DNA of 64,000 nucleotides from Tridacna crocea (lineage: Eukaryota; Mollusca; Bivalvia; Cardiida; Cardiidae): assembly GCA_943736015.1 (NCBI GenBank), contig OX031064.1, positions 39,545,361 through 39,609,360 of the forward strand, given 5' to 3'. Positions 7,691 through 64,000 of this stretch are shown one piece after another. The notes below the pieces were generated by a model. That model was not told the DNA's origin and made no database searches. It saw nothing but the letters and a program-made list of their open reading frames with translations. Both the position numbers and the translations under genes were made by a program. The first letter of the stretch is position 1. Each line of letters begins with the position of its first letter.

Positions 7691-7904
7691 AGACGACAAT
7701 TTTGTAGGGAGTAAAAACGGAGAAAAGCTCAGTAAAAGTTAGAGGGCGTTTTTGAGAAGGGAGATATTGCTAATTATGAGCGATCCTTTCTTTTCACAAA
7801 CGTTTTTTTCTTTAAAGACCTGTAATTTAGACAGGTGAAAATCTGGGATTTTAGGAAAGAGCTATTCATGTATATGGATTTTATGTATATCAACTTTTCG
7901 TAAA

Positions 7905-8925
7905 TATTGCTGGAACAGATTGACATGAAATAGATGACCTTTGTTATCATATATTACAAACTTGAATTATGTTCGAATTTAGCTTCGGCTAATGTCGTCT
8001 GCATGCGGATTTTAATAGTGCAGGCCTTTTGGCTCTTTATGTGGCTGATCATCTTCGCAAGCCAAGGATACAAACTCCACTTTGTTCGACCTTGGCCGCT
8101 CGCCTCTTTAAAACTCTAAACTCCCGCTGCGCCACCTATCGAATATCACGAGTTGTGTAACTTTTTCTGATATAACTTTTGACCAATCAAAATGACTGTA
8201 ATAAAATTTGTTGGGCTATGCATCAAATATGGCTACGCTTTCGGATTCATCACATCAAAAACAAGACGAACAGACATACGATAATTCGCAATCATTTGGC
8301 TGTGGAACCCGTCCTAATATTTCACATAATTGATCGTAAACTATACAAAAAAAAAAAACTCATTAAATACCGATCATCTACTCTTTTTTTGGCAAATTTT
8401 CGTCACAGACACGACTACTTTCGTTCTTTGATGGGCGCCGCCATTATTGTTTTCTTTTTTGCGAAAGATTTCTAGTTACGGATGGTTTGATTGGACGCGG
8501 TGGGTTTTGATCGCATCCATTGAAATGGCGCAGCGGGAGCTTCGATTTTTAAAGAGGCGAGCGGCCAAGGGTACTACCTTAGTATCCTTGGCTTGCGAAG
8601 ATGGTGGCTGATATATCTACCTTGTCCTTAAAGAATAATGAAAATACTAGAAATCAACATGATTGGTTAAACAGGTAATTCGTGGCCAGTAACATGGATC
8701 TACGTTGTACTTTCCATGTATGTCGTCTGATCTTGGTCTATGTCATTAACAAATGCTCTCATATTTTGACTTAGGCACTGTAGGAGGTCAAACCCGACAT
8801 TTACCATTAATAGAGTTTCGGCACTGTCCAATTGTGCCCGATGGTGTGAATATTTACTTTTTGGTTATTCTTTGCAAGGAGGTCAATTTCAGGTCAGTTT
8901 GTTCAAATAATACCTCTCTCCAAAC
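7905..8925 (+). mobile_element. MITE-1, copy 1 (interrupted)
   Basis: Segments 7905-8049 and 8613-8925 match, in order, the contiguous 28560-29003. Shared landmarks are GGCTAATGTCGTCTGCATGC and GGTCAAACCCGACATTTACC. The ends are imperfect inverted repeats (GATTGACATGAAAT at the left, ATTTCAGGTCAGTTTG at the right). There is no coding capacity. It is split by the 554-bp Mutator-type MITE. Confidence 0.7.
8050..8603. mobile_element. Mutator-type MITE with 9-bp target duplication
   Basis: Begins CATCTTCGCAAGCC and ends with the exact reverse complement. Inverted ends extend about 90 bp with interruptions (CTTGGCCGCTCGCCTCTTTA is shared). It is flanked by GTGGCTGAT at 8041-8049 and again at 8604-8612. 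A perfect 9-bp duplication is the size made by Mutator-like transposases. The insertion interrupts MITE-1, whose sequence resumes after the duplication. The 98-codon frame inside resembles nothing. Confidence 0.88.
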
Positions 8926-15949: not shown

Positions 15950-16835
15950 TTTTAGCTCACCTGAGCACAAGGTGTTCAAGGGGAGCTTTTAGGATCACCC
16001 GGTGTCCGTCGTCCGTCGTGCGTTGTGCGGCGTCAACAATTCTTTAAACATCAACTCCTCCACTGGGCCAATTTGGACCAAACTTGGCTGGAATGTTCCT
16101 TGGGAGGTCCTCTTTAACGTTCACAGAATTTGATTCCGTCAAAAACTCTGGTTGCCATGGCAACCAAATGGAATTTTCTAAGAAATTCTTTAAAAATCTT
16201 CTCTGAAACCGCTGGCCGGATTTTAAAATTATTTCAGAGATGTTTCTTGGGTGACCCTTTTTAAAAAGTGTTCACGAAATTTTGATACGTCAAGAAACAT
16301 GGCTCTGGTGAATGGGGGCTACTTGCACTATACAGCAAAGAAGAAATTCTTAAAAACTATTCTTCTGTGAAATGGGTGGTCAGATTTTGAAATAATTTCT
16401 CAGGGATGTTCTTTGGGTGACCCTTTTCAAAAAAAGTTCGCGAAACTTTGATCCGTCAAAAAACGTTGCTCTGGTGAATGGGGGCTATTTGCACTATACA
16501 GCTACGAAGAAATTCTTGAAAATTTTTCTTCTCTTGAACGGCTGGTCAGATTTTGAAATAATTTCTCAGGGATGTTCTTTGGGTGACCCTTTTCAAAAAA
16601 AGTTCGTGAAATTTTGATCCGTCAAGAAACATGGCTCTGGTGAATGAGGCTACTTGCACATTACGGCAAAGAAGAAATTATTCAAAATTCTTCTTCTCTG
16701 AAACCGCTGGTCAGATTTTAAAATAATTTCACAGAGATGGTCTTTGGGTTACCCTTTTAAAAATTTATTCGTGAAATTTCGATCCGTCAAGAATCACGGC
16801 TCTGGTGAATGGGGGGCTACTTGAAAAATATATAT
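15950..16835 (+). repeat. Bivalve-type GTCCGTCGT repeat with about 165-bp tandem units
   Basis: Starts with GCTCACCTGAGCACAAGGTG, then GTGTCCGTCGTCCGTCGTG, a signature of widespread bivalve repeats. From 16178, four imperfect units of about 165 bp follow, each with TCTGGTGAATGGGGGCTACT and GGGTGACCCTTTT. The array is interrupted at 16836 and resumes at 20318. Confidence 0.8.
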
Positions 16836-18525: not shown

Positions 18526-20290
18526 ATTTATCGGATACGCTACAGTGTTCTGAAGATGTAGCGTTTTGTCAGAAAAAATATTTCTTCATAGATTTCGAAA
18601 ATTTGTTTAAGTTATGATAGGGATCTAATATTTGTTGTATTAATCATCGTTTTTGTTGATTCCCGACGGTTGAATTGTATACATAGTCTCCTTATCGAAT
18701 AGGTTTCACGTTCCTTTCGCTGTGAGTCAGACCATGTCTCTTTGGCCTCAATTACGCATAGTACTACATCCTCAAAAGAGTGTCCTGCTGCGCTAAAGTG
18801 TTCTGCAACAGGAGATCTGTTAAATTTGCGGGTTTTCCAGTCTGAGCAGTGCAGATTCATCCGCTTATTCAATGCCGGTTTAGTTTCACCTACATACTGC
18901 TTTTTACATTCCCTGCAGGTGATTAGGTAAACAGCATTCATTGATTTGCAACTGAAAGTGCCTTTGTAAGAAGACGTAGCCCCAAGCATAGATTTGAATG
19001 TTTGCAAAGGACGCATAATTTTGCAAGTCTGACAGCGCGATGTATTACACGGACCTGAATGCCCGACAGTGTTTGGATTGGCTTGGGAGTTTAGTTTTGC
19101 TCGCACAAGAATGTCCTTCAGGCTTTTTGGTCTCCTGTAAGCCACCAATGGTTTTTCTGGGAATTTTCGAGGATTCAATTTTTGGCCAGTGTTGTTTAAG
19201 TATTTTGTGTATTTTTGGCATGTCAGGATGGTAAGTGACAACAAAGGGAATTCTGTCAATTTGACTTGGTTTTGTTTTATACTTGAGAAGTTCTTTGCCT
19301 TTGAAATAGCACTGGTGATAGATGTAATATTATATCCTCTGCTCTGGAGCTGTTTTGACAATTCGTTGGCGCGGACTTGGAAATCACATTCTCTAGAACA
19401 TATTCTTCTTATCCGTAGAGCCATACTATAGGGTATGTTTTGGATACAATGTTTTGGATGGCAACTAGAGGGTAAAAGATATTGATGTTTGTCTGTTGGT
19501 TTTGAGTATAGATCTACAATCAGTTTGTCTGACTCGATCCTCGAAACAGTGTCAAGAAAAATATGCTGTTCATTTGATATATCACTGGTAAACTTGATAG
19601 TAGGATGGAAATTACTGGCTATTTCTAAAAAGGTTTGTAAGTTTTGATGCCCATGACACCATTGCATGTGAATGTCGTCAATGAAACGCAGCCAGAGATA
19701 TGGTGTAAGTGGTACAGACATTATTATACGTATCTCCAGGTGTCCAATGAAGAAATTGGCGTATGATGGGGCCATTTTTGTGCCCATTGCTGTGCCTTGT
19801 ATTTGAAGATAGTGTTTTTCATTGAATTCAAAATTGTTACACTTCAATACGAGGAGTAGGAGTTCAATAAGTATTTCTGTTGGAGGGACTTTAGATTCCC
19901 TGCTATCCCAGACCTCTTTGCAGGCTGCTACTCCGTCTTCATGGGGAATATTTGTATATAGAGACGTTACATCAAGTGACACTAGAATTGTTTCGTTTGG
20001 GAGTGGATTAGACTCCACCTATTTCAGGTAATCCGTGGTGTCTTGTACATATGATGGTAGCTCTTCTACAAAAGGTCTCAGATGACGGTCCACAAATTCC
20101 AAAATGCGATCAGTTGGATGACCGTTCGCGGATACAATGGGACGGCCTGGATTACCAGTCTTGTGTATTTATGGGAGAAGGTAGAACCTTCCTGCCTTTG
20201 GTTGTGGTACACAGAGATAGTCAAAATTTTCTTTACTTATGTAACCCAAATTAAGCACTTTATTGAGAGTTTTAGTGACTTTTGATTGAA
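18526..20290 (-). mobile_element. 5'-truncated Penelope-like element
   Basis: The 3' end is shared with 16960-17160. The 5' end is cut at a TA microsatellite near 20290. It encodes an RT followed by a GIY-YIG endonuclease, the defining arrangement of Penelope-like elements. It abuts the Tigger relic without a visible target duplication. Confidence 0.85.
18612..20286 (-). pseudogene. Penelope-like RT plus GIY-YIG endonuclease
   Basis: The main frame (20018-18612) has 468 residues: SLDVTSLYTNIPHEDG (RT block A), GTAMGTKMAPSYANFFIGHL (block B), LRFIDDIHMQW (catalytic pair as IDD), SNEQHIFLDTVSRI, and LYSKPTDKHQYL. The C-terminus has a GPCNTSRCQTC cysteine cluster and AVYLITCRECKKQYVGET, the GIY-YIG module that cuts target DNA. 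Upstream, the same frame continues through VPQPKAGRFYLLP and [20 protein letters not shown] but crosses two stops, and the N-terminus is lost. The M at 20018 is therefore not a real start. Confidence 0.88.
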
Positions 20291-20317
20291 TATATATACA
20301 CTGTGTATATATACACG

Positions 20318-20640
20318 GGAAAGAAGAAATTCTTAAAAATTCTTCTTCTCTGAAACCACTGGTCAGATTTTGAAATAATTTCTCAGGGATGTTCTGTGGG
20401 TGACCCTTTTCAAATAGTGTTCGTGAAATTTTGATTTGTCAAGAAATATGCTCTGGTGAATGGGGGCTACTTGCACTATACGGACATGAGGAAATTCTTG
20501 AAAATTCTTCTTCTCTGAAATGGCTTATCAGATCTTGAAATAATTTCACAGAGATGTTCCTTGGATGACCCTTTTCATCTTGAATTAAGACAAGAGAAGA
20601 AGGCAAAAAAATCATTCGTCGATTCAGTCCCGAGTATAAT
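20318..20640 (+). repeat. GTCCGTCGT-family repeat, continuation
   Basis: After a TA/CA microsatellite (20291-20317) the 165-bp units resume with AAGAAGAAATTCTTAAAAAT and TCTGGTGAATGGGGGCTACT. This shows that 16836-20317 was inserted into the array. Similarity fades near 20580. Confidence 0.75.
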
Positions 20641-27880: not shown

Positions 27881-27945
27881 ACATATATGTGTTAGAGTGT
27901 CAGATTTAGCACAATCCGGTAACAGACTTTTTGACGTTAATGTAT

Positions 27946-28097
27946 TGTAGCCGGGTATAGGTATTTGGTGATATATCGTGCCGCCATGTCGACATGTGGT
28001 TTGGTAGCTCAGTTGGTTAGAGTGCAGGAACGCTATTCCTGAGACCCTGGGTTCGAATCCCGGTCGAGCCGCGATATATTTTTCACCACCTGTTACA
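27946..28097 (+). repeat. LTR 1 of the miniature array
   Basis: 152 bp, TGTAGCC...TGTTACA. Contains a tRNA-like sequence at 27998-28070. The first variable base of the anticodon region (GCT rather than GGT) distinguishes it from the other three. Confidence 0.85.
27998..28070 (+). tRNA. tRNA-like sequence in LTR 1
   Basis: 73 nt that fold by eye into a full cloverleaf: 7-bp acceptor (GGTTTGG/TCGAGCC with G-U pairs), 4-bp D stem with AGTTGGTTA loop, 5-bp anticodon stem CAGGA/TCCTG, 5-base variable region, and T arm with TTCGAAT loop. A box TAGCTCAGTTGG and B box GGTTCGAATCC are intact. The anticodon position reads GCT. Position 33 is C, not the near-universal U, so a decoding role is doubtful. 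A Pol III promoter role is more likely. Confidence 0.75.
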
Positions 28098-28559
28098 TTT
28101 GGCGCTCACCGTTAAGGTTCATGTAAAGTGTTTATTTTGCTTAATTTCATACGTCAATAATTCTGTAATTATTAAAATTTGTCCAGGAAAACGATATATC
28201 AAATTAAAGCTCTGGATGAGTACAAGCTGTTTTACATAATTATACCTACTGGCCTTGCATAATAAAACTAAAACATTGCAGAAAAAGATGACATCGTTTA
28301 AAACCTACAAAATAATAATGACATAACAAAATTGCTTAAGTTTTGGAGAAAACATAGGCTATGGTACATACCAGGTACTGCTACTACCAAAAATCCTATA
28401 GTTTCTTTAAAAAGGCACATATTTAAGTCAGAAAGTTTGACATTTTTCCCTTATTGAATTGTCAACCATGTTTGACCTACTTTGTTTTAGTAACAGGTAT
28501 GGTGTCTGCACAGGATCAAAATGTACTAGTGGTTGTGTGTAATAAACTTTCATTAGTAT

Positions 28560-29003
28560 TACCTGAACAAATTGACATGAAATAAATGACCTCAGTTACC
28601 ATATATTACACGCTTGATTTATTGTTCTAACTTGGCTCCGGCTAATGTCGTCTGCATGCGGAACTATGTGCATGTTTCTAAAGTCTTTATGCTGCTAATA
28701 GATTTACCGGGTATAGTGTTTTCAAAGAATACTTGAAATACCTGAAATAACCATTATATTGTTGGTTTAAATTGGTAATACATGGTGGGTGACTTAGATC
28801 TATGATGTGCTTTCTGTGTAGCCTGATTTTAATTTATGCCATCCACAAAACCTTTTTATTTTGACTAAGGCGCAGTAAGGGTCAAACCCGACATTTACCG
28901 ATTACAGTTTCTGTACAGTCCGGTTATACCCGATGGTTTAAATATTCACGTTTTAATTACTCTTTGCATAAAGGTCAATTTCAGGTCAATTTATTCCAGT
29001 AAT
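28560..29003 (+). mobile_element. MITE-1, copy 2
   Basis: About 440 bp present only in the left arm of the TTAA element; the right arm reads straight across its position. Matches 7905-8049 plus 8613-8925. Ends ACCTGAACAAATTGACATGA and TCAGGTCAATTTATTCCAGT are imperfectly inverted. Confidence 0.75.
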
Positions 29004-29155
29004 AATTTTAGATAAAAAAAGAATAAAAATGACCTGTACAAGTGAAATTTCCATGTCCACTTACAAACCCTTTCTCAAAAACAGCACCCCACTACCCCAT
29101 CACACACACAAAAAGAACAATGAAAAAAATGCTTATGTCAAAAATTGATTCTAAA

Positions 29156-29213
29156 TCCTATCTACCAGACTGGTGACACCTTAATCCTATCTACCAGACT
29201 GGTGACACCTTTT
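29156..29213 (+). repeat. 29-bp tandem duplication
   Basis: AATCCTATCTACCAGACTGG with TGACACCTT occurs twice in the loop of the TTAA element. Confidence 0.85.
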
Positions 29214-29850
29214 GTAACTGCTGTTTTTGAGAAAGGGTTTGGACGTAGACATGGAAATTTCACTTGTACAGGTCATTTTTATGTTTTATTATCTAAAATT
29301 ACTAATGAAAGTTTATCATGCACAACCACTTGTACATTTTGATCCTGTGGAGACACCATACCTGTTACTAAAACAAAGTAGGTCAAACATGGTTGACAAT
29401 TCAATAAGGGAAAAATGTCAAACTTTCTGACTTAAATATGTGCCTTTTTAAAGAAACTATAGGATTTTTGGTAGTAGCAGTACCTGGTATGTACCATAGC
29501 CTATGTTTTCTCCAAAACTTAAGCAATTTTGTTATGTCATTATTATTTTGTAGGTTTTAAACGATGTCATCTTTTTCTGCAATGTTTTAGTTTTATTATG
29601 TAAGGCCAGTAGGTATAATTATGTAAAACAGCTTGTACTCATCCAGAGCTTTAATTTGATATATGGTTTTCACGGACAAATTTTAATAATTACAGAATTA
29701 TTGACGTATGAAATTAAGCAAAATAAACACTTTACATGAACCTTAATAACCCACGATGTGGATGGCTACTGCTTAGGCACCTCGAGAACATTTCACAAGG
29801 CTTCACTGTCTCCAGAATTCGAGACGAATTTTAAATTTGGAGGGGGTATA

Positions 29851-30002
29851 TGTAGCCGGGTACAGGTATTTGGTGATATATCGTGTAGCTGTATCGACAT
29901 GTGGTTCGGTAGCTCAGTTGGTTAGAGTGCAGGAACGGTATTCCTGAGACCCTGGGTTGGAATCCCGGTCGAGCCGCGATATATTTTTCGCCACCTGTTA
30001 CA
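29851..30002 (+). repeat. LTR 2 of the miniature array
   Basis: 152 bp, same ends as LTR 1. Preceded by TTTGGAGGGGGTATA and followed by TTTGGCGCCCACCGT. Confidence 0.85.
29903..29975 (+). tRNA. tRNA-like sequence in LTR 2
   Basis: 73 nt as in LTR 1 but with acceptor GGTTCGG and anticodon position GGT. The B box is altered (GGTTGGAATCC), which would weaken Pol III initiation. Confidence 0.7.
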
Positions 30003-30118
30003 TTTGGCGCCCACCGTAAATAATCCACGATGTGGATGGCTACTGCTTAGGCACCTCGAGAACGTTTCACAATGTTTCTCTGTCTCCAGAATTCGGGACA
30101 GAATTTGGAGGGGGTATA

Positions 30119-30270
30119 TGTAGCCGGGTATAGGTATTTGGTGATATATCGTGCGGCCATGTCGACATGTGGTTTGGTAGCTCAGTTTGTTAGAGTGCAG
30201 GAACGGTATTCCTGAGACCCTGGGTTCGAATCCCGGTCGAGCCGCGATATATTTTTCACCACCTGTTACA
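30119..30270 (+). repeat. LTR 3 of the miniature array
   Basis: 152 bp, same ends. Followed by TTTGGCGCTCACCGTTAA, the same 18 bases that follow LTR 1. Confidence 0.85.
30171..30243 (+). tRNA. tRNA-like sequence in LTR 3
   Basis: 73 nt cloverleaf with one change in the D loop (AGTTTGTTA). Anticodon position GGT, C at position 33, intact B box GGTTCGAATCC. Confidence 0.72.
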
Positions 30271-30393
30271 TTTGGCGCTCACCGTTAATAACCCACGATG
30301 TGGATGGCTACTGCTTAGGCACCTCGAGAACATTTCACAATGCTTCTCTTGTCACCAGAATTCGGGACGAATTCTAAATTTGGAGGAGGTATA

Positions 30394-30545
30394 TGTAGCC
30401 GGGTACATGTATTTGGTGATACATCGTGCGGCTATGTCGACATGTGGTTCGGTAGCTCAGTTGGTTAGAGTGCAGGAACGGTATTCCTGAGGCCCTGGGT
30501 TCGAATCCCGGTCGAGCCGCGATATATTTTTCACCACCTGTTACA
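30394..30545 (+). repeat. LTR 4 of the miniature array
   Basis: 152 bp, same ends. It is followed by GTAT, the right target duplication. Confidence 0.85.
30446..30518 (+). tRNA. tRNA-like sequence in LTR 4
   Basis: 73 nt cloverleaf with A and B boxes intact, anticodon position GGT and C33. The variable region differs by one base (AGGCC). Confidence 0.74.
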
Positions 30546-30549
30546 GTAT

Positions 30550-31620
30550 GGTAATTCATTGGCGAAAAATGTTTGTTTGTGTAGACAAAATCTTACAAGG
30601 GCGACGATTTTCTCCATATATGCAAATATTGGATGGTAAACGTGACAAAATGAGTCACGTGATCAACAATGTGATTCTTACTGAGTTGTCAAACGATCAC
30701 GTGATTCCTATAAAACAGTTATTGCCGTTCAATGCATTGTGCCCTGCTACAGAAATAACTGGTTTGCGGCGCCATTCATGTTCAGCATCAATATTTTCTT
30801 GTTTGTAGTTTATATTGGTCGCGTAAGCGTAAGTACCGAGAGCATATGACGAGGCAGTCTACTGCCCGATATCTGTTGGCAGTTTCATTTCAGATACAAC
30901 TGGTAGATACTTGATTACCTGTCTATGTATTGGTTAATAACAACTCCTTTTTCAAGAATTTCTGCCATAATTGATACAAAATGATTTTAAACAATGTATA
31001 ATACATGAAATAAGACAGATTATCTTCTTAAGACTTCTACAACTTCGTCATTAGCTAGCTCGTGCGGATGGAACTTTTGAAGATCAAATTATCACCCGCT
31101 AGATGGCATTCTTCGAAGAATATGACATGGGAAGACAACATGTTTACACCGATCGACCTTTGAATTTATTACAGAAAAGACCGAAAATGATGGTTCCGAG
31201 CCGTTTATGCATACAGATTCTTAACCAATTCATACAAATGCTTCTTGCATTCGTCTAGTCAGGTACGCAATAGCGTTATCTATTATTTGGTTAACACAAT
31301 TTAACTCATTCGTTTCTTTATGACATGAAGTACTCGTTTAGTTACAAGTAAATACGTACACGTAGTACTAGTATGAAAATTACGAATGAAACTCTTAGAA
31401 TACTGAAGTTTCTAATATATGACAGAAGTTGAGACAAAGGAGCAATAAAAGCCCCATATACACGTAATGATAGTAGGCAAACATCATTTAACGCACATAG
31501 CAGTTGTCACACCTCTGTATGCGTGTAATAAAAGTATAAATAGACATGTACGCAATGTTGATGGAATATTCATTTACCATAATACCAATGTAAAATGAAT
31601 GCAAGAATGAATCACTTGCA
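30550..31620. other. No gene recognised
   Basis: Short frames only (86 codons at 30548-30808). CACGTGATC occurs twice near 30655-30705. No element identified. Confidence 0.45.
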
Positions 31621-31935
31621 TGGATGGATTTTTTACCTAAATCCCCTTCCATATCCTTGGGTGACTCTTTCCAAAAGTTGTTCGCGAAATTTTGATCCAT
31701 CAAGAAACATGCTCTGGTGAATGGGGACTACTTGCACTATATAGAAATTAATACATTCTTAAAAATTCTTCTTTTCTGAAGCTGATGGTCAGATTTTGAA
31801 TTTACTTTTACAGGTGACCTTTGGAAATTTGCTTGGCAAAATAATGATTTTGCTTCCAATGTTTCAGTTCCTCAAAAAAAGGCTATGGTCCTCTCAAAAA
31901 TTCAGGTGAGCGATCCAGGGCCATCTTGGCCCTCT
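31621..31935 (+). repeat. GTCCGTCGT-family repeat, terminal part
   Basis: Contains GGGTGACTCTTTCC, TCTGGTGAATGGGGACTACT and then CAGGTGAGCGATCCAGGGCC with GGCCCTCTTGT, the opposite end of the family. CAGGTGAGC is the inverse of the GCTCACCTG start seen at 15958, so the family may have inverted ends. Confidence 0.7.
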
Positions 31936-38539: not shown

Positions 38540-39080
38540 TGTTATGTACATACCCAGTTATTCCTAGCTTTGTTCATGTGTGTATCTATTTTTGAATGGT
38601 TTTCCCCTGTTGCTATTTTTAGAACTGGATTCTCTCTTGTGGAATATTGTGCTGGAAGTTTCCAGGCCTTTTTACAATCTGATTACTAGAAATTATGCAA
38701 CTGATTTTAACATGAATTTTCTGGAAGTTTCTCTGTTATTATAAAAGGAAAAGCTCTTTACATCTCGGCGTTCACTAGTTTATACATGATTGCCAGACTA
38801 CAGTGGGGATTATTTTGTGCTTGGATTACATTCAGTTGGATTAGGATCAGACTAGACTAAAGTGAGGATTATTTCATGTGCTTGGATTACATTCAGTTTG
38901 GATCAGGATCAGATTGGAATTAAGACTGGAATAATTTGTCTTTTGAATTTAACGTCTAAGGTATTGTTTTGTACTATTGTAATATTGTCACTGTTTATTT
39001 GATATTTTTGTTAATAAATTCTGTTCATTGTTATCGTTTGTTGCTGGCTTCTTCTTTCTAGTTACGCCTGACTCGTAACA
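38540..39080 (+). repeat. 5' LTR
   Basis: 541 bp. TATAAAAG at 38740-38747 is a likely TATA box and AATAAA at 39013-39018 a likely poly(A) signal. It has about 57 bp near 38594-38650 that are absent from the 3' LTR. Confidence 0.9.
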
Positions 39081-39085
39081 GAAAT

Positions 39086-39103
39086 TGGGGGCTCGTCCGG
39101 GAT
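39086..39103 (+). other. Primer binding site, proline-tRNA type
   Basis: TGGGGGCTCGTCCGGGAT, 18 bases, five bases after the 5' LTR. It equals the proline-tRNA primer site known from gammaretroviruses and other retroelements. Confidence 0.85.
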
Positions 39104-39106
39104 TGG

Positions 39107-39240
39107 AAAATAGACTTACGGGATTGGAAACTAGACTAACGCATTCGTTTTCCTTTTGGGATTAATCATCGATTGGAAAATAGACTGACGCATTCGTTTT
39201 CCTTTTGGGATTAACCATCGATTGGAAAATAAGACATAGA
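39107..39240 (+). repeat. Leader tandem repeats
   Basis: GATTGGAAAATAGACTGACG followed by CATTCGTTTTCCTTTTGGGA occurs in near-identical units of about 67 bp between the primer site and gag. Confidence 0.8.
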
Positions 39241-39347
39241 CGTTTGCTTTTCACAATTTAAAAAAAAATCTAATACATCCTGTTAGTCAAAATTACTAAT
39301 CAGTAATTATAATATAATTTTGTTCTTGAATCCAGCAACAAACATAC

Positions 39348-42026
39348 ATGTCTTTTGACTTAGATAAATTTACGGCTGAACCGTCTGTGGAGTTACTCAA
39401 TGTAGGTAAAAAGACTGATTTGCTTAATCTTGCTAAACACTATGAATTGTCTGAAATAAAATCTTCAATGCTTAAACATGAAATTAAGAACATTTTGGTA
39501 CAATATTTTGTTGATGAGGAGATTTTCAATGAAAATGCTCTTTCCCTGATAGTTGACGTTCAGTCAGTTTCAAGTTCGAAAAAACTTGAATTAAAATTTC
39601 AGATCAGACAATTAGAAATTCAGGAAAGAGAGAAGGAAAGAGAAAGGGAAAGAGAAAGGGAGAGAGAAGAAAGAGAAAGGGAAAGACAGAGAGAAGAAAG
39701 AGAAGAGAGAGAGAAAGAAAGAGAAAGGGAAGAGAGAGAGAAGGAGAGAGAATTTCAATTAAGAATGAGGGAAATAGAAATGCAAGAAAGAGCAAATCAG
39801 CCGAAGCAAAAGATTGAATACAATTTCGATGTTACAAAACATATTAGGCTTGTTCCTCCATTTCAAGAAAAAGAAGTTGATAAATACTTCCTACACTTTG
39901 AAAAAGTTGCAGAAAACTTAAATTGGCCAAGAGAGCACTGGACTTTGCTTCTGCAAAGTGTTTTGATAGGCAAAGCTCGTGAAATTTATACACAACTAGG
40001 TGTTGAACAATGTCATCATTATGAGACTGTTAAAGAACTTATTCTCAAAGGTTATGAGCTGGTCCCAGAAGCATATAGACAAAAATTTAGAAATTGTAAA
40101 AAAGATTCTAACCAGACTCATGTTGAATTTGCTAGAAACAAAGAACAGTTATTTGATAGATGGTGCTGTTCTAAGAAAATAGACCAAAATTATGATAAAC
40201 TAAGACAACTTATGTTAGTTGAAGAATTCAAACGTTGTATTCAATCTGATGTTAAGACATTCTTAGACGAAAAACAAGTTGAAACTTTAGAAGAAGCAGC
40301 TCGTCTGGCTGATAATTACTACCTTACACATAAAGTTTCTTTTATTAATAAACCAAAACCTACTTCCTCACATCCCCAAAATAAATCTATGTCTGGTAAT
40401 TCATCTGGCATGCCCAGTCAATCCAACACACCCAAACCCAATTCTACTAGTGAAACCAAAAGTCAATATCCCTTATCTCGACCCACTTGTAACTATTGTA
40501 AGAAACATGGTCACCTTGTTTCTGAATGTTTGAAATTAAAAAGGAAGTTAGAAAGTGATGAAACCAAACCAACAGGGCTCACCACTCTTAGACCAAGGCC
40601 ACAGTCTTCTGTTAAATCCAATACAATTGACATAGTCACAAAACCCAAGTCTGATTCTACTATGGAGATTTTTGAACCATTTATGTTGAATGGTTTTGTA
40701 TCACTTTCAGGTGATAATTGCCCACCTACCCCTATTAAAATTTTAAGAGACACAGGAGCTTCTCAATCTCTTATTTTAGCAGATATACTGCCTTTTTCTG
40801 AGAAGACTTCTTCCGGTACTAGTGTCCTTATTCAGGGTGTAGAGTGTGGAACTGTTAATATCCCTCTCCATTACGTTAATTTGTCATCAGATTTGGTTAC
40901 TGGGCTTGTGGTTATTGGTATTAAACCTTCCTTACCATTTAAAGGTGTCCATTTATTGCTAGGCAATGACTTAGCTGGAGATAAGGTTGTGGTTAATCCA
41001 CTTGTAACTGACACACTAAATATAGGTCAAACAGATGACCCTATCGAGCAGGAAATTCCTGACTTGTATCCTTCTTGTGCAGTTACCCGAGCTATGGCTA
41101 AAAAGGCCATTTTGAAAAACTCAATCTCTGACATTGACTTGATGGATACTTTTATCGGTCAATATTTTAATAATGAGATTAAAAAGTCTCTTGATCCCAG
41201 TTTGTCTGATACTCAGACATACTCGTCAATGTCTTGTCATTCATCATCACAGTCTATTGACCAAGGTCACGACACGCTGTCAAAGTCACAGCTTATCCAG
41301 GAACAGCAAACTGATCCTGAGATTTCAAAATTAATTTTTAGGGCTTTACCTGAGGATGAAATTTCACAAGTCCCAATGTGTTACTTTATAAAGAATGGGA
41401 TTCTTATGCGAAAATGGCGACCATTTGATGTCCCAGCTGATGATGAATGGGCTGTTTACCACCAAATTGTGGTTCCAAAGTCATATCGCCATGAAATACT
41501 AAGTATAGCCCATGAAAGTCCTATGTCAGGTCATCTAGGTATCAACAAGACCTATCACAAAATTATTAATCATTTTTATTGGCCTGGTCTCAAATCAGAT
41601 GTCTCGAAATATTGTAAAACTTGCCATACATGTCAAATGGTAGGTAAATCCAACCAAACCATTCCCAAAGCTCAATTACAACCTATTCCTGCTTTTGATG
41701 AACCTTTCAGTAGGATACTTATAGATTGTGTTGGTCCTTTACCTCGAACAAAGTCAGGAAATGAGTATCTTTTAACAATTATGTGTACTTCTACACGTTT
41801 TCCTGAAGCTATTCCTTTAAGGAACATAAAAACAAAGTCAATAGTCAAAGCTCTTATAAAATTTTTCACATTTGTTGGCCTTCCAAAATCAGTTCAGTCT
41901 GATCAAGGGTCAAATTTTATGTCTGGTATATTCCAACAGGTTATCCATGAATTAGGGATCAAGCAATATAGGTCATCCGCCTATCACCCTGAAAGTCAAG
42001 GTGCTTTAGAAAGATTTCACCATTAA
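39348..42026 (+). CDS. Gag-protease-integrase frame of the LTR element
   Basis: 892 codons. Residues 1-90 are Gag N-terminus. 93-150 is an almost pure Glu/Arg repeat (EREREREREE). 155-340 is a Gag core with HYETVKELILKGYELVPEAY and EFARNKEQLFDRW. A CCHC knuckle lies near 380 (CNYCKKHGHLVSEC). The protease active site DTGASQSLI is near 466. The integrase has an HHCC zinc-binding part near 721-760 (HESPMSGHLG ... CKTCHTC) and catalytic D (LIDCVGP), D (SDQGSNF) and E (GALERF), the last pair 35 residues apart. The frame stops just after the catalytic Glu because of a small deletion, so integrase is cut from its C-terminal domain. Integrase upstream of RT is the striking feature. Start chosen at the first ATG after the leader. 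Confidence 0.88.
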   Translation: MSFDLDKFTAEPSVELLNVGKKTDLLNLAKHYELSEIKSSMLKHEIKNILVQYFVDEEIFNENALSLIVDVQSVSSSKKLELKFQIRQLEIQEREKEREREREREREERERERQREEREEREKEREREEREKEREFQLRMREIEMQERANQPKQKIEYNFDVTKHIRLVPPFQEKEVDKYFLHFEKVAENLNWPREHWTLLLQSVLIGKAREIYTQLGVEQCHHYETVKELILKGYELVPEAYRQKFRNCKKDSNQTHVEFARNKEQLFDRWCCSKKIDQNYDKLRQLMLVEEFKRCIQSDVKTFLDEKQVETLEEAARLADNYYLTHKVSFINKPKPTSSHPQNKSMSGNSSGMPSQSNTPKPNSTSETKSQYPLSRPTCNYCKKHGHLVSECLKLKRKLESDETKPTGLTTLRPRPQSSVKSNTIDIVTKPKSDSTMEIFEPFMLNGFVSLSGDNCPPTPIKILRDTGASQSLILADILPFSEKTSSGTSVLIQGVECGTVNIPLHYVNLSSDLVTGLVVIGIKPSLPFKGVHLLLGNDLAGDKVVVNPLVTDTLNIGQTDDPIEQEIPDLYPSCAVTRAMAKKAILKNSISDIDLMDTFIGQYFNNEIKKSLDPSLSDTQTYSSMSCHSSSQSIDQGHDTLSKSQLIQEQQTDPEISKLIFRALPEDEISQVPMCYFIKNGILMRKWRPFDVPADDEWAVYHQIVVPKSYRHEILSIAHESPMSGHLGINKTYHKIINHFYWPGLKSDVSKYCKTCHTCQMVGKSNQTIPKAQLQPIPAFDEPFSRILIDCVGPLPRTKSGNEYLLTIMCTSTRFPEAIPLRNIKTKSIVKALIKFFTFVGLPKSVQSDQGSNFMSGIFQQVIHELGIKQYRSSAYHPESQGALERFHH

Positions 42027-42031
42027 AAAAT

Positions 42032-43387
42032 ATGATAAGATCATATTGCTTTGACACTGAAAAAGATTGGGATGAGGGCATCCATTTGTTACTATTTGCA
42101 GCCAGAGAATCCGTACAAGAGTCTCTTGGTTTCAGTCCTTTTGAATTAGTTTTTGGCCATTCTGTTCGTGGACCTTTAAAACTTTTGAAAGAGAAATTTC
42201 TTTCAAATGATGAAACACCTTTGAATTTACTGCAGTATGTTTCTGACTTCAGAAATAGACTGTCTAGGGCATGTGAGGTTGCTAGGTCTAATCTTAAAAC
42301 GTCTCAGGGCAAAATGAAAGCAAGATATGACAATCATGTTATTGATAGAAAATTTAAACCAGGTGACAAAGTCCTTGCTCTTTTGCCAATACCTGGCAGA
42401 CCTCTACAGGCAAGATATTTTGGACCCTACACTATTGACAAGAAAACAAGTGATTTAAACTATGTAATTAATACTCCAGGAGGGCGTAAAAACAAACAAA
42501 TGTGTCATATAAATATGTTAAAGGAATACTTTGACAGAGATAGCTCTATTTCAAAACCAATTACAGTTGTAAACACTGTCCCACAAGAATCAAATGTATC
42601 TGATCTTGAAGTAAATTCGGACTTTATTGATAAATCTGATCCTGGTCCATCTAAACTTGAGAATTCTGATATTTTGAGAAACCTCGACAACAAACTTTCT
42701 CACTTGGAACCATCACAACAGGAAGAGCTGAAACAGTTGATACATGAATATGAACATTTATTTCCTGATATCCCCACAAGAACAGATAAAATCTATCATG
42801 ATGTCATTGTGGAAGATTCTAAACCAATAAAGCAACATCCATATAGGATGAATCCTTTGAAACAGAAATACCTCCAAGATGAAGTAAAATACTTACTGGA
42901 AAATGACTTTATTGAATCTAGCCAGAGTAATTACAGTTCACCATGTATATTAGTACCTAAATCAAATGGAACTTATAGAATGTGTACTGACTATCGTAAA
43001 GTGAACTCTGTGACAAAAACAGACTCTTTTCCAATACCAAGAATTGATGACTGTATTGACAAAGTTGGAAATTCTAAATATGTCACCAAATTTGACCTGC
43101 TAAAAGGATTCTGGCAAGTTCCACTGACAGATAGAGCAAAAGAAGTATCAGCCTTTGCTACTCCAAACGGTCTGTACCAATACAAAGTTATGCCGTTTGG
43201 GATGAAAAATTCTTCTGCAACGTTTCAGCGGCTTATAAACAACGTTATATGTGGATTAGACGGCTGTGATACATATATTGACGACGTCATCATCTACTCA
43301 GACAGTTGGAGTGACCACCTTCAAAGAATCAGGAAGTTCTTCGACAGACTCAGTAAAGCGAAACTGACTGAATCTTGCAAAAACTGA
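42032..43387 (+). pseudogene. Integrase C-terminus plus reverse transcriptase
   Basis: 451 codons. It begins with the end of integrase (ESVQESLGFSPFELVFGHSV), then a GPY/F domain (KPGDKVLALL ... YFGPYTIDKK). From about residue 250 comes the Ty3/gypsy RT: YSSPCILVPKSNGTYRMCTD, KFDLLKGFWQVPL, KVMPFGMKNSSATFQRLIN and the catalytic YIDDVIIY near 413. A two-base loss near 43370 ends the frame before RNase H. It follows the previous frame after only five bases, so one polyprotein was broken by indels. Confidence 0.9.
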
Positions 43388-44020
43388 ATTTTGTCATGCT
43401 ACTGTAACATTTCTAGGACATCTTGTGGGACAGGGTCAAGTTAAACCTTTAGAAGCTAAGGTCAATGCTATCTCTGAGTTTCCTGTGCCTAAATGTAAAA
43501 GACAGCTGATGCGATTTCTTGGTATGGCTGGCCACTATAGGAAATTCTGTAAAAATTTCTCAGGTATTGCTGAACCTTTAACAAATTTACTAAAGAAAAG
43601 CACAAAGTTCAAATGGAATGACAAATGTCAAGATGCATTTGATCGTCTAAAAGCCATACTAAAGAGCGCACCAGTTCTCTTGGCACCTGATTTTGACAAA
43701 TGTTTCAAATTAGCTGTTGATGCAAGTGATGTTGGTATTGGTGCTGTTTTTTTTTACAAGAAGATAATAATGGTATTGATCACCCAGTTTGTTACTTTTC
43801 TAAGAAATTTAACAAACATCAGAAAAATTACTCTACCATAGAAAAAGAGTGTCTTGCTTTAATTCTGGCAATCCAGCAGTTCGAAGTTTATTTAACTTCT
43901 TTAACTTCACCAATCGTTGTATTCAGTGATCATAACCCTTTAAGTTTTCTACACAAACTTAAGAATAAGAATCAAAGATTACTGAGGTGGAGTTATTTCA
44001 TAAGGTTTATTTCATAAACC
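43388..44020 (+). pseudogene. RNase H part of the LTR element
   Basis: Starts TEFCHATVTFLGHLVGQG and runs through RQLMRFLGMAGHYRKFCKNF to the RNase H start KLAVDASDVGIGAV (first catalytic Asp). A T-run expansion near 43745 breaks the frame. Beyond it YSTIEKECLALILAIQQF and VVFSDHNPLSFLHKL are in another frame. The C-terminal part after LLRWSYFIR is short, suggesting a deletion close to the purine tract. Confidence 0.85.
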
Positions 44021-44035
44021 TTTCTTTTTCTTTTC

Positions 44036-44046
44036 AAGGGGGAAAG
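44036..44046 (+). other. Polypurine tract
   Basis: AAGGGGGAAAG directly before the 3' LTR, the usual plus-strand primer position. Confidence 0.85.
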
Positions 44047-44530
44047 TGTTATGTACATACCCAGTTATTCCTAGCTTTGTTCATGTGTGTATCTATTTTT
44101 GAATGAAGTTTCCAGGCCTTTTTACAATCTGATTACTAGAAATTATGCAACTGATTTTAACATGAATTTTCTGGAAGTTTCTCTGTTATTATAAAAGGAA
44201 AAGCTCTTTACATCTCGGCGTTCACTAGTTTATACATGATTGCCAGACTACAGTGGGGATTATTTTGTGCTTGGATTACATTCAGTTGGATTAGGATCAG
44301 ACTAGACTAAAGTGAGGATTATTTCATGTGCTTGGATTACATTCAGTTTGGATCAGGATCAGATTGGAATTAAGACTGGAATAATTTGTCTTTTGAATTT
44401 AACGTCTAAGGTATTGTTTTGTACTATTGTAATATTGTCACTGTTTATTTGATATTTTTGTTAATAAATTCTGTTCATTGTTATTGTTTGTTGCTGGCTT
44501 CTTCTTTCTAGTTACGCCTGACTCGTAACA
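44047..44530 (+). repeat. 3' LTR
   Basis: 484 bp, identical to the 5' LTR in nearly all aligned positions I compared (one T/C difference near 44485) except for the 57-bp segment missing after CTATTTTTGAATG. Confidence 0.9.
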
Positions 44531-63087: not shown

Positions 63088-64000
63088 CTAACCGATAATG
63101 GCGGATGTAGTTCCATCGATACGAAAGTTAACTTCGGAACTCTCTCTACCTATTCTATTTACAGAACGAATGCAATAGGAACCCGGATTTAAACTGTCTA
63201 CAGAAATGGTGTCTTTATGTAAAACAACCACCAAATTCCAGACGTCAGCCTCGGACCTATATATAGCCCAGTACATAACGAAAGACCCACGCGACCAACT
63301 GACAGTATTTCCGTTGACCTTAACATTTGTAGGTATAGAAGGTGAAGGTGAAGTAAGCCATGCCATTTCCGGTGTAAGCGCCGGTTGAATGTAAACTTCT
63401 CTTTTAAACATATCGCCAATACTGTCTCGATTCTCAGTAAACTGAACCATGCTAAACTGAATGTTTCCAAGACTGGAGTTGTTTCGAAAATTTCGAGTGA
63501 TTTCAATTTGCTTTTTTATTTCATTCACATTCCAGTGATGTTCTTCAATAGCCGCCGCGAAATTTCCTACATAAATGTGACGTTTCTGAAAATTCTGTTG
63601 CAGCCACCATTCTAGTAGTTGTGGATAGCTCTGATGTGGAGCATCAATTTTCCAGTAGAGTTGTGGCGCCAGGTAGTCCAACAGCCCCATCTGTATCCAT
63701 TTTCTGGAGTCTGCGTACAGTGCGTCAAATGAGCTCAAACCACTTACATTAGAAGGATATCCAGGCTTCCAGATCCCGAATGGACTGATACCAAACTTGA
63801 TATAAGATTTTATACTATGAACTTCAGTTTTCAGCTTCTGTACAAGATTGTCTACGTTTGAACGTCTCCAGTCACTTAAACCTAATTTACCACCTGCGGA
63901 CTTGTAAGCACTGTATGTTTTAGAATCAGGAAACGGGATTCCAGATTTCGGATACGGGTAAAAGTAGTCGTCCATGTGAACCCCGTCTATGTCATAGTGT
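63088..64000 (-). CDS. Glycosyl-hydrolase-like 10 (YngK-type) protein, partial
   Basis: An open minus-strand frame from the window edge to a TAG stop. The N-terminus is outside the window, since HYDIDGVHMDDYFYPYP is read across the first ATG (63975), so that Met is internal. Landmarks: YDIDGVHMDDYFYPYP, KLGLSDWRRSNVDNLV, KFGISPFGIWKPGYP and LLDYLAPQLYWKI, all signatures of the bacterial GHL10/DUF187 family of TIM-barrel hydrolases thought to act on cell-wall or polysaccharide substrates. The last 75 or so residues (from about SIPTNVKVNGNTVSWS) look like a beta-sandwich (FN3-like) appendage, as in bacterial members. About 300 codons with no intron. In an animal genome this suggests acquisition from bacteria; contamination is unlikely because repeats of the same genome lie within 600 bp. 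Confidence 0.88.
   Translation of the reverse strand, partial: HYDIDGVHMDDYFYPYPKSGIPFPDSKTYSAYKSAGGKLGLSDWRRSNVDNLVQKLKTEVHSIKSYIKFGISPFGIWKPGYPSNVSGLSSFDALYADSRKWIQMGLLDYLAPQLYWKIDAPHQSYPQLLEWWLQQNFQKRHIYVGNFAAAIEEHHWNVNEIKKQIEITRNFRNNSSLGNIQFSMVQFTENRDSIGDMFKREVYIQPALTPEMAWLTSPSPSIPTNVKVNGNTVSWSRGSFVMYWAIYRSEADVWNLVVVLHKDTISVDSLNPGSYCIRSVNRIGRESSEVNFRIDGTTSAIIG

Follow-up and report, generated by a model that had tools for sequence, protein, structure and literature searches.

What kind of element places a tRNA-like sequence inside each of four direct repeats, and has an element of this kind been described before? This is the question raised by an array at 27946-30545 of a 64,000-nt stretch of Tridacna crocea DNA (the window, here, means this whole stretch). 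Our answer, given with high confidence, is that the array is a non-autonomous miniature LTR retrotransposon (TRIM) of the Helenus kind (TRIMp3), with four LTRs and three internal domains.

The boundaries of the array are the natural place to begin. An initial sequence-only reading had proposed four LTRs of exactly 152 bp with TGTA...TACA ends, and all four can be placed as such on the (+) strand: LTR1 at 27946-28097, LTR2 at 29851-30002, LTR3 at 30119-30270, and LTR4 at 30394-30545. Compared pairwise, the LTRs differ at 3 to 10 of the 152 positions; the outer pair, LTR1 and LTR4, differs at 8. The same reading had placed a single GTAT duplication around the whole array, and this is borne out by direct reading, since the four bases directly outside LTR1 (27942-27945) are identical to those directly outside LTR4 (30546-30549). 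At the local base composition, two given 4-mers would match by chance with a probability of about 0.005, a figure that here concerns one insertion only. The window has 17 listed open reading frames (ORFs) of 110 aa or more, and all of them lie outside the array.

Internal domains of about 120 bp had also been proposed. This holds for internal 2 (30003-30118, 116 bp) and internal 3 (30271-30393, 123 bp), but internal 1 (28098-29850; all three on the (+) strand) measures 1,753 bp and fits only when an insertion is set aside. Its length is explained by a 1,627-bp element at 28116-29742 that splits a 122-bp unit; once this element is removed, the residual unit aligns with internals 2 and 3, and in internal 3 the TTAA target runs without interruption. 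The inserted element has inverted termini of ~440 bp that are 98% alike, TTAA on both sides, and GG...CC ends, and its longest stop-free stretch is 72 aa. By its sequence it fits a Kolobok-like non-autonomous transposon, following the rule for Kolobok ends (TTAA, GG...CC) in the available part of PMC9587614. Parts of the same element match 7884-8009 (83%) and 8630-8912 (73%).

Each internal domain carries the two priming signals expected of an LTR retrotransposon, as had been claimed, with one reservation about spacing. The motif TGGCGC(C/T)CACCGT lies 2 nt past LTR1, LTR2, and LTR3, and is absent after LTR4, where the outer flank starts. The resulting primer-binding sites on the (+) strand are TGGCGCTCACCGT in internal 1 (28100-28112), TGGCGCCCACCGT in internal 2 (from 30005), and again TGGCGCTCACCGT in internal 3 (from 30273). 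They agree at 11, 12, and 11 of 13 positions, respectively, with the complement of the 3' end of tRNA-Lys-CTT. Near the end of all three internals there is a purine tract, GGAGGGGG or GGAGGAGG, followed by TATA. The tract thus stops 4 nt before the next LTR and does not adjoin it, whereas the purine tract of LTR retrotransposons usually abuts the LTR.

The most distinctive part of each LTR is a 73-nt tRNA-like unit on the (+) strand, at 27998-28070 in LTR1, 29903-29975 in LTR2, 30171-30243 in LTR3, and 30446-30518 in LTR4. ARAGORN calls a tRNA in all four LTRs: Ser GCT in LTR1 (at 27998-28072) and Thr GGT in each of the others. The Rfam tRNA model finds three of the four in a scan of the whole window, missing LTR2; in a more permissive scan of 27900-30600 alone it finds all four, at 52.7, 50.2, 49.7, and 54.8 bits for LTR1 to LTR4 (gathering score 29).

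The units had been described as perfect cloverleaves. Every stem is indeed paired in all four (acceptor 7/7, D 4/4, anticodon 5/5, and T 5/5, making 21 pairs with G-U counted), and each 73-nt unit folds into a cloverleaf by itself, but the word “perfect” goes too far. In none of the four cases is the cloverleaf part of the minimum-energy structure of the whole 152-nt LTR. The B box of LTR2 is broken (GGTTGGA), with loss of the invariant C, and the A box of LTR3 is broken by a change of one G of GG to T, so that each box is intact in three of the four units, and both are intact in LTR1 and LTR4. In addition, all four copies have C at position 33. Elongator tRNAs have U at this position, and a functional elongator tRNA gene can be set aside as an identity for these units, given that the conserved U33 is absent.

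A run of five T residues (T5) resembling a Pol III terminator begins at the ninth base past the tRNA-like unit in every LTR, at 28079-28083 (+) in LTR1 and with starts at 29984, 30252, and 30527 in the other three. The motifs AATAAA, ATTAAA, and TATA(A/T)A do not occur in any of the four LTRs. Taken together, the tRNA fold, the boxes, and T5, with no such poly(A) signal or TATA box, are consistent with a Pol III unit. We also considered whether an inverted repeat flanking the tRNA-like unit (GGTGATATATCG against CGATATAT...TCACC) might act as a hairpin terminator that distinguishes the 3' from the 5' LTR. This candidate is borderline at best: its score was equalled by 21, 12, 11, and 78 of 400 shuffles for LTR1 to LTR4, copies that are not independent of one another, and one of its pairs is broken in LTR4.

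As far as sequence features go, there is good support for reading the array structurally as a TRIM whose LTRs bear a Pol III promoter of the tRNA type, because the equal LTRs, the 4-bp duplication, the primer site, the purine tract, the tRNA stems, the boxes, and T5 all agree. The earlier proposal of a miniature LTR retrotransposon that would be the tRNA counterpart of Cassandra fits every feature that can be tested in the window. Its further suggestion that this type of family was undescribed is wrong: Kojima (2024, PMC10886601) gave the name Helenus, as a twin of Cassandra, to TRIMs with tRNA-derived sequence in their LTRs, known from fungi, animals, and one plant, and including 51 families in five orders of pteriomorph bivalves. 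The kind of element is therefore already known, and our placement of the array goes by this published description rather than by comparison with the catalogued consensus sequences.

The points of likeness are many. As in Helenus, a tRNA-like unit lies inside the LTRs (all four of them here), with A and B boxes, given by Kojima as TRGCY and YGG for box A and GGTTC for box B (PMC10886601), that are both intact in LTR1 and LTR4. The primer site follows just past the 5' LTR, and Lys is among the primers of bivalve Helenus families, which use Lys, His, Ile, Pro, Glu, or Ser (PMC10886601); a purine tract precedes the 3' LTR, here falling 4 nt short of it. Animal Helenus elements generate 4-bp duplications (PMC10886601), as GTAT is here. 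The unit formed by LTR3, internal 3, and LTR4 (30119-30545) is 427 bp long and contains no listed ORF, which compares well with the 311-1263 bp and lack of coding capacity reported for Helenus (PMC10886601). Seven bivalve families are able to encode tRNA-Thr, the call obtained for three of the four units here, and the zebrafish family LTR-11_DR likewise forms tandem arrays (both PMC10886601). No tested feature of the array falls outside the description. For T5, we found no mention of a terminator of this kind for Helenus in the available main text of PMC10886601.

It is worth setting the array beside other TRIMs. Like Cassandra, it is a TRIM whose LTR contains a promoter and a terminator for Pol III (both putative in the array), and like Cassandra it forms tandem arrays of LTRs and internal domains (PMC7215508 and PMC10886601, in the parts available). 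Cassandra differs in being a plant element, in carrying 5S rRNA in place of tRNA, and in its primer site, TGGTATCAGAGC (available part of PMC7215508); membership can be rejected, since the Rfam scans of the array report tRNA but not 5S rRNA. The biv-TRIM elements are also bivalve TRIMs that occur in tandem arrays, but the available text of PMC6934838 gives them terminal repeats of 202-218 bp, internal regions of 77-80 bp, no clear primer site, and, in most, the purine tract GGGGAGA. The 152-bp LTRs, 116-123-bp internals, and tract GGAGGGGG of the present array do not fit, and biv-TRIM membership was rejected as well. Where that source could be searched, no tRNA unit is reported in the terminal repeats, and the term “polymerase III” is absent from its main text. 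Similarly, Ajax of nemerteans (PMC10886601) is a TRIM of animals whose LTR has a small-RNA promoter, and it differs from the array in having a 5S rRNA fragment and a 5-bp duplication.

Scans of collections of viral and prokaryotic contigs gave no relatives of the array; host-type genomes lie outside these collections, and the missing relatives consequently say little. The only match there, in a viral contig (L001), looks by eye like an unrelated ordinary tRNA gene with primer-like letters by chance.

How might such an element be copied? We infer transcription by Pol III, priming by a host tRNA, and a helper element, and the most likely course is one in which Pol III starts in the 5' LTR and ends its transcript at the T5 of an LTR farther on, tRNA-Lys serves as primer, and Gypsy proteins do the remaining work. 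Pol III would be recruited to the 5' LTR by the two boxes (A and B) in its tRNA-like unit and would start near this unit. The polymerase would pass the first T5, cross the primer site and the internal domain, and stop at the T5 of a later LTR, and the repeated R region would consist of the tRNA-like unit plus T5. The minus strand would then be primed by a host tRNA, with tRNA-Lys as the likeliest one, and the plus strand by the purine tract; reverse transcriptase and integrase would come from an unlinked autonomous element, probably Gypsy, and the cDNA would be inserted with a 4-bp duplication. A transcript of this type has a precedent in Cassandra, whose RNA, according to the available part of PMC10886601, begins within the 5' LTR and ends within the 3' LTR.

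Our fuller version of this scheme is tentative, and we hold it with rather less than even confidence. It takes the LTR to be a complete Pol III unit in which T5 would stand in for a poly(A) signal, bypassed in the 5' LTR but obeyed in the 3' one, giving tRNA-like R ends; a discrete RNA of ~90 nt would be produced as well, and arrays would behave as small clusters of tRNA-like genes. The difficulty lies in T5 itself, as its presence in the 5' LTR means that many Pol III transcripts should end at roughly 90 nt. RNA of the full element would call either for read-through of T5 that is frequent enough or for another promoter.

The second of these options leads to the alternative that survives best, although we consider it unlikely: a Helenus-type TRIM that relies on Pol II for its genomic RNA, with the tRNA-like unit as a passenger or as the source of a short, T5-ended Pol III RNA. 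The position of T5, at the ninth base past the unit in four of four LTRs, speaks for this, given the early ending just described. The absence of AATAAA, ATTAAA, and TATA(A/T)A from all four LTRs argues against it, as does the Cassandra route from 5' to 3' LTR. This alternative concerns the transcription step only and is compatible with the identity of the array as Helenus.

Two further alternatives would instead change the identity. The first, which we regard as very improbable, is a satellite array or a cluster of tRNA genes, that is, a tRNA-containing unit of 268-275 bp amplified with no retrotransposon past. TRF does report a 268-bp period with 2.9 copies in the array, and the internal-plus-LTR units do run head to tail. 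However, the array is bounded exactly by LTR ends (TG...CA) and a 4-bp duplication, has an extra terminal LTR, and shows a primer-like site 2 nt past LTRs 1-3 that is missing past LTR4. The second is a tRNA-derived SINE, mobilised by a LINE and repeated by chance; SINEs typically begin with a tRNA-like part that bears both boxes, but we give this reading next to no credence, as by eye the LTRs have no trailing poly(A) or simple-repeat tail, and in four of four copies the tRNA-like unit has 52 nt before it and 27 nt after it, with LTR-type ends. Also on the side of a SINE, Kojima has proposed that Helenus originated by insertion of a SINE2 into the LTR of a TRIM (PMC10886601).

For the array as a Helenus-type TRIM, there is then the question of how four LTRs came to lie in a row. 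Of 14 variable columns in the LTRs, three (13, 40, and 57) divide them two against two, and all three set LTR1 and LTR3 against LTR2 and LTR4. In the internals, the 12 ungapped substitution columns join 1 with 3 in seven cases, 2 with 3 in three, and 1 with 2 in two. This ABAB pattern suggests duplication in place of a two-unit block, and the single outer pair of GTAT suggests one insertion event. Judging from these few columns, the most likely history is that the array arose after one insertion through an unequal exchange that doubled a two-unit block; insertion of a ready-made concatemer is a less likely origin. For Cassandra arrays, both unequal crossing-over and template switching are discussed in the available part of PMC7215508.

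The remainder of the window holds several other features. The one Gypsy-like element examined, at 38655-44530, ~8 kb downstream of the array, has LTR stretches that are 99.8% alike (426 bp) and an integrase upstream of its reverse transcriptase. Its primer site, TGGGGGCTCGTCCGGGAT, which is presumably Pro-like, differs from that of the array, and the element is not a good candidate for the helper. The order of integrase before reverse transcriptase is that of the Gmr1 clade (available part of PMC6238403). Its 5' LTR looks shortened, because the LTR match starts ~58 bp into the 3' LTR, if the latter begins at TGTTATG near 44047.

A profile scan for domains covered 8 of the 17 ORFs. The ORF at 18612-20018 has a GIY-YIG domain together with a reverse transcriptase match of 25.5 bits, under the Pfam cut-off of 29.6, a combination that we take to be as in Penelope-like elements. 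The ORF at 63088-63975 (-), compared with other proteins as 63091-63975, encodes a glycosyl hydrolase-like 10 protein (GHL10, YngK-like), of a family common to bivalves, other animals, and bacteria. Its best match is P0001 at 82% (from the best 120 of 3,472 matches). Among the matches listed, the best of each of 13 bivalve species lies at 46-54%, with Mytilus, Mactra, Mercenaria, and Saccostrea at 53-54%, and some of these bivalves score no differently from amphioxus (47%) or a protein of a cyanobacterium (50%). Taken by itself, this one ORF makes a bivalve host, as in many Helenus families, probable. In a tree of 18 rows, the window protein groups firmly only with P0001 (100/100); support is low at the two deepest forks (32/93), and the tree does not decide between Pteriomorphia and Heterodonta. 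Finally, a tandem repeat of ~166 bp (3.9 copies) occupies 16180-16823, and sequence related to it recurs at 20310-20577 and 31654-31813.

Large numbers of tRNA genes have been reported in bivalves: the available part of PMC9679248 gives 339 tRNA-Thr and 1,019 tRNA-Ser genes in Ostrea edulis, a matter left open there, and 791 tRNA-Thr genes in Mercenaria mercenaria. Helenus may account for some of this excess. Two points in the same partial source count against such an origin: the tRNA-Ser copies of Ostrea edulis are reported to lie outside any repeat, and the over-represented anticodons are AGA and AGU, whereas the units of our array have GCT and GGT. For those who annotate bivalve genomes, it is nevertheless important to bear in mind that LTRs of the Helenus type can inflate counts of tRNA-Thr or tRNA-Ser, because these LTRs score as tRNA genes (four of four by ARAGORN) and yet are without U33. 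The array described here is a clear and independently found example of Helenus, and it backs the 2024 description.
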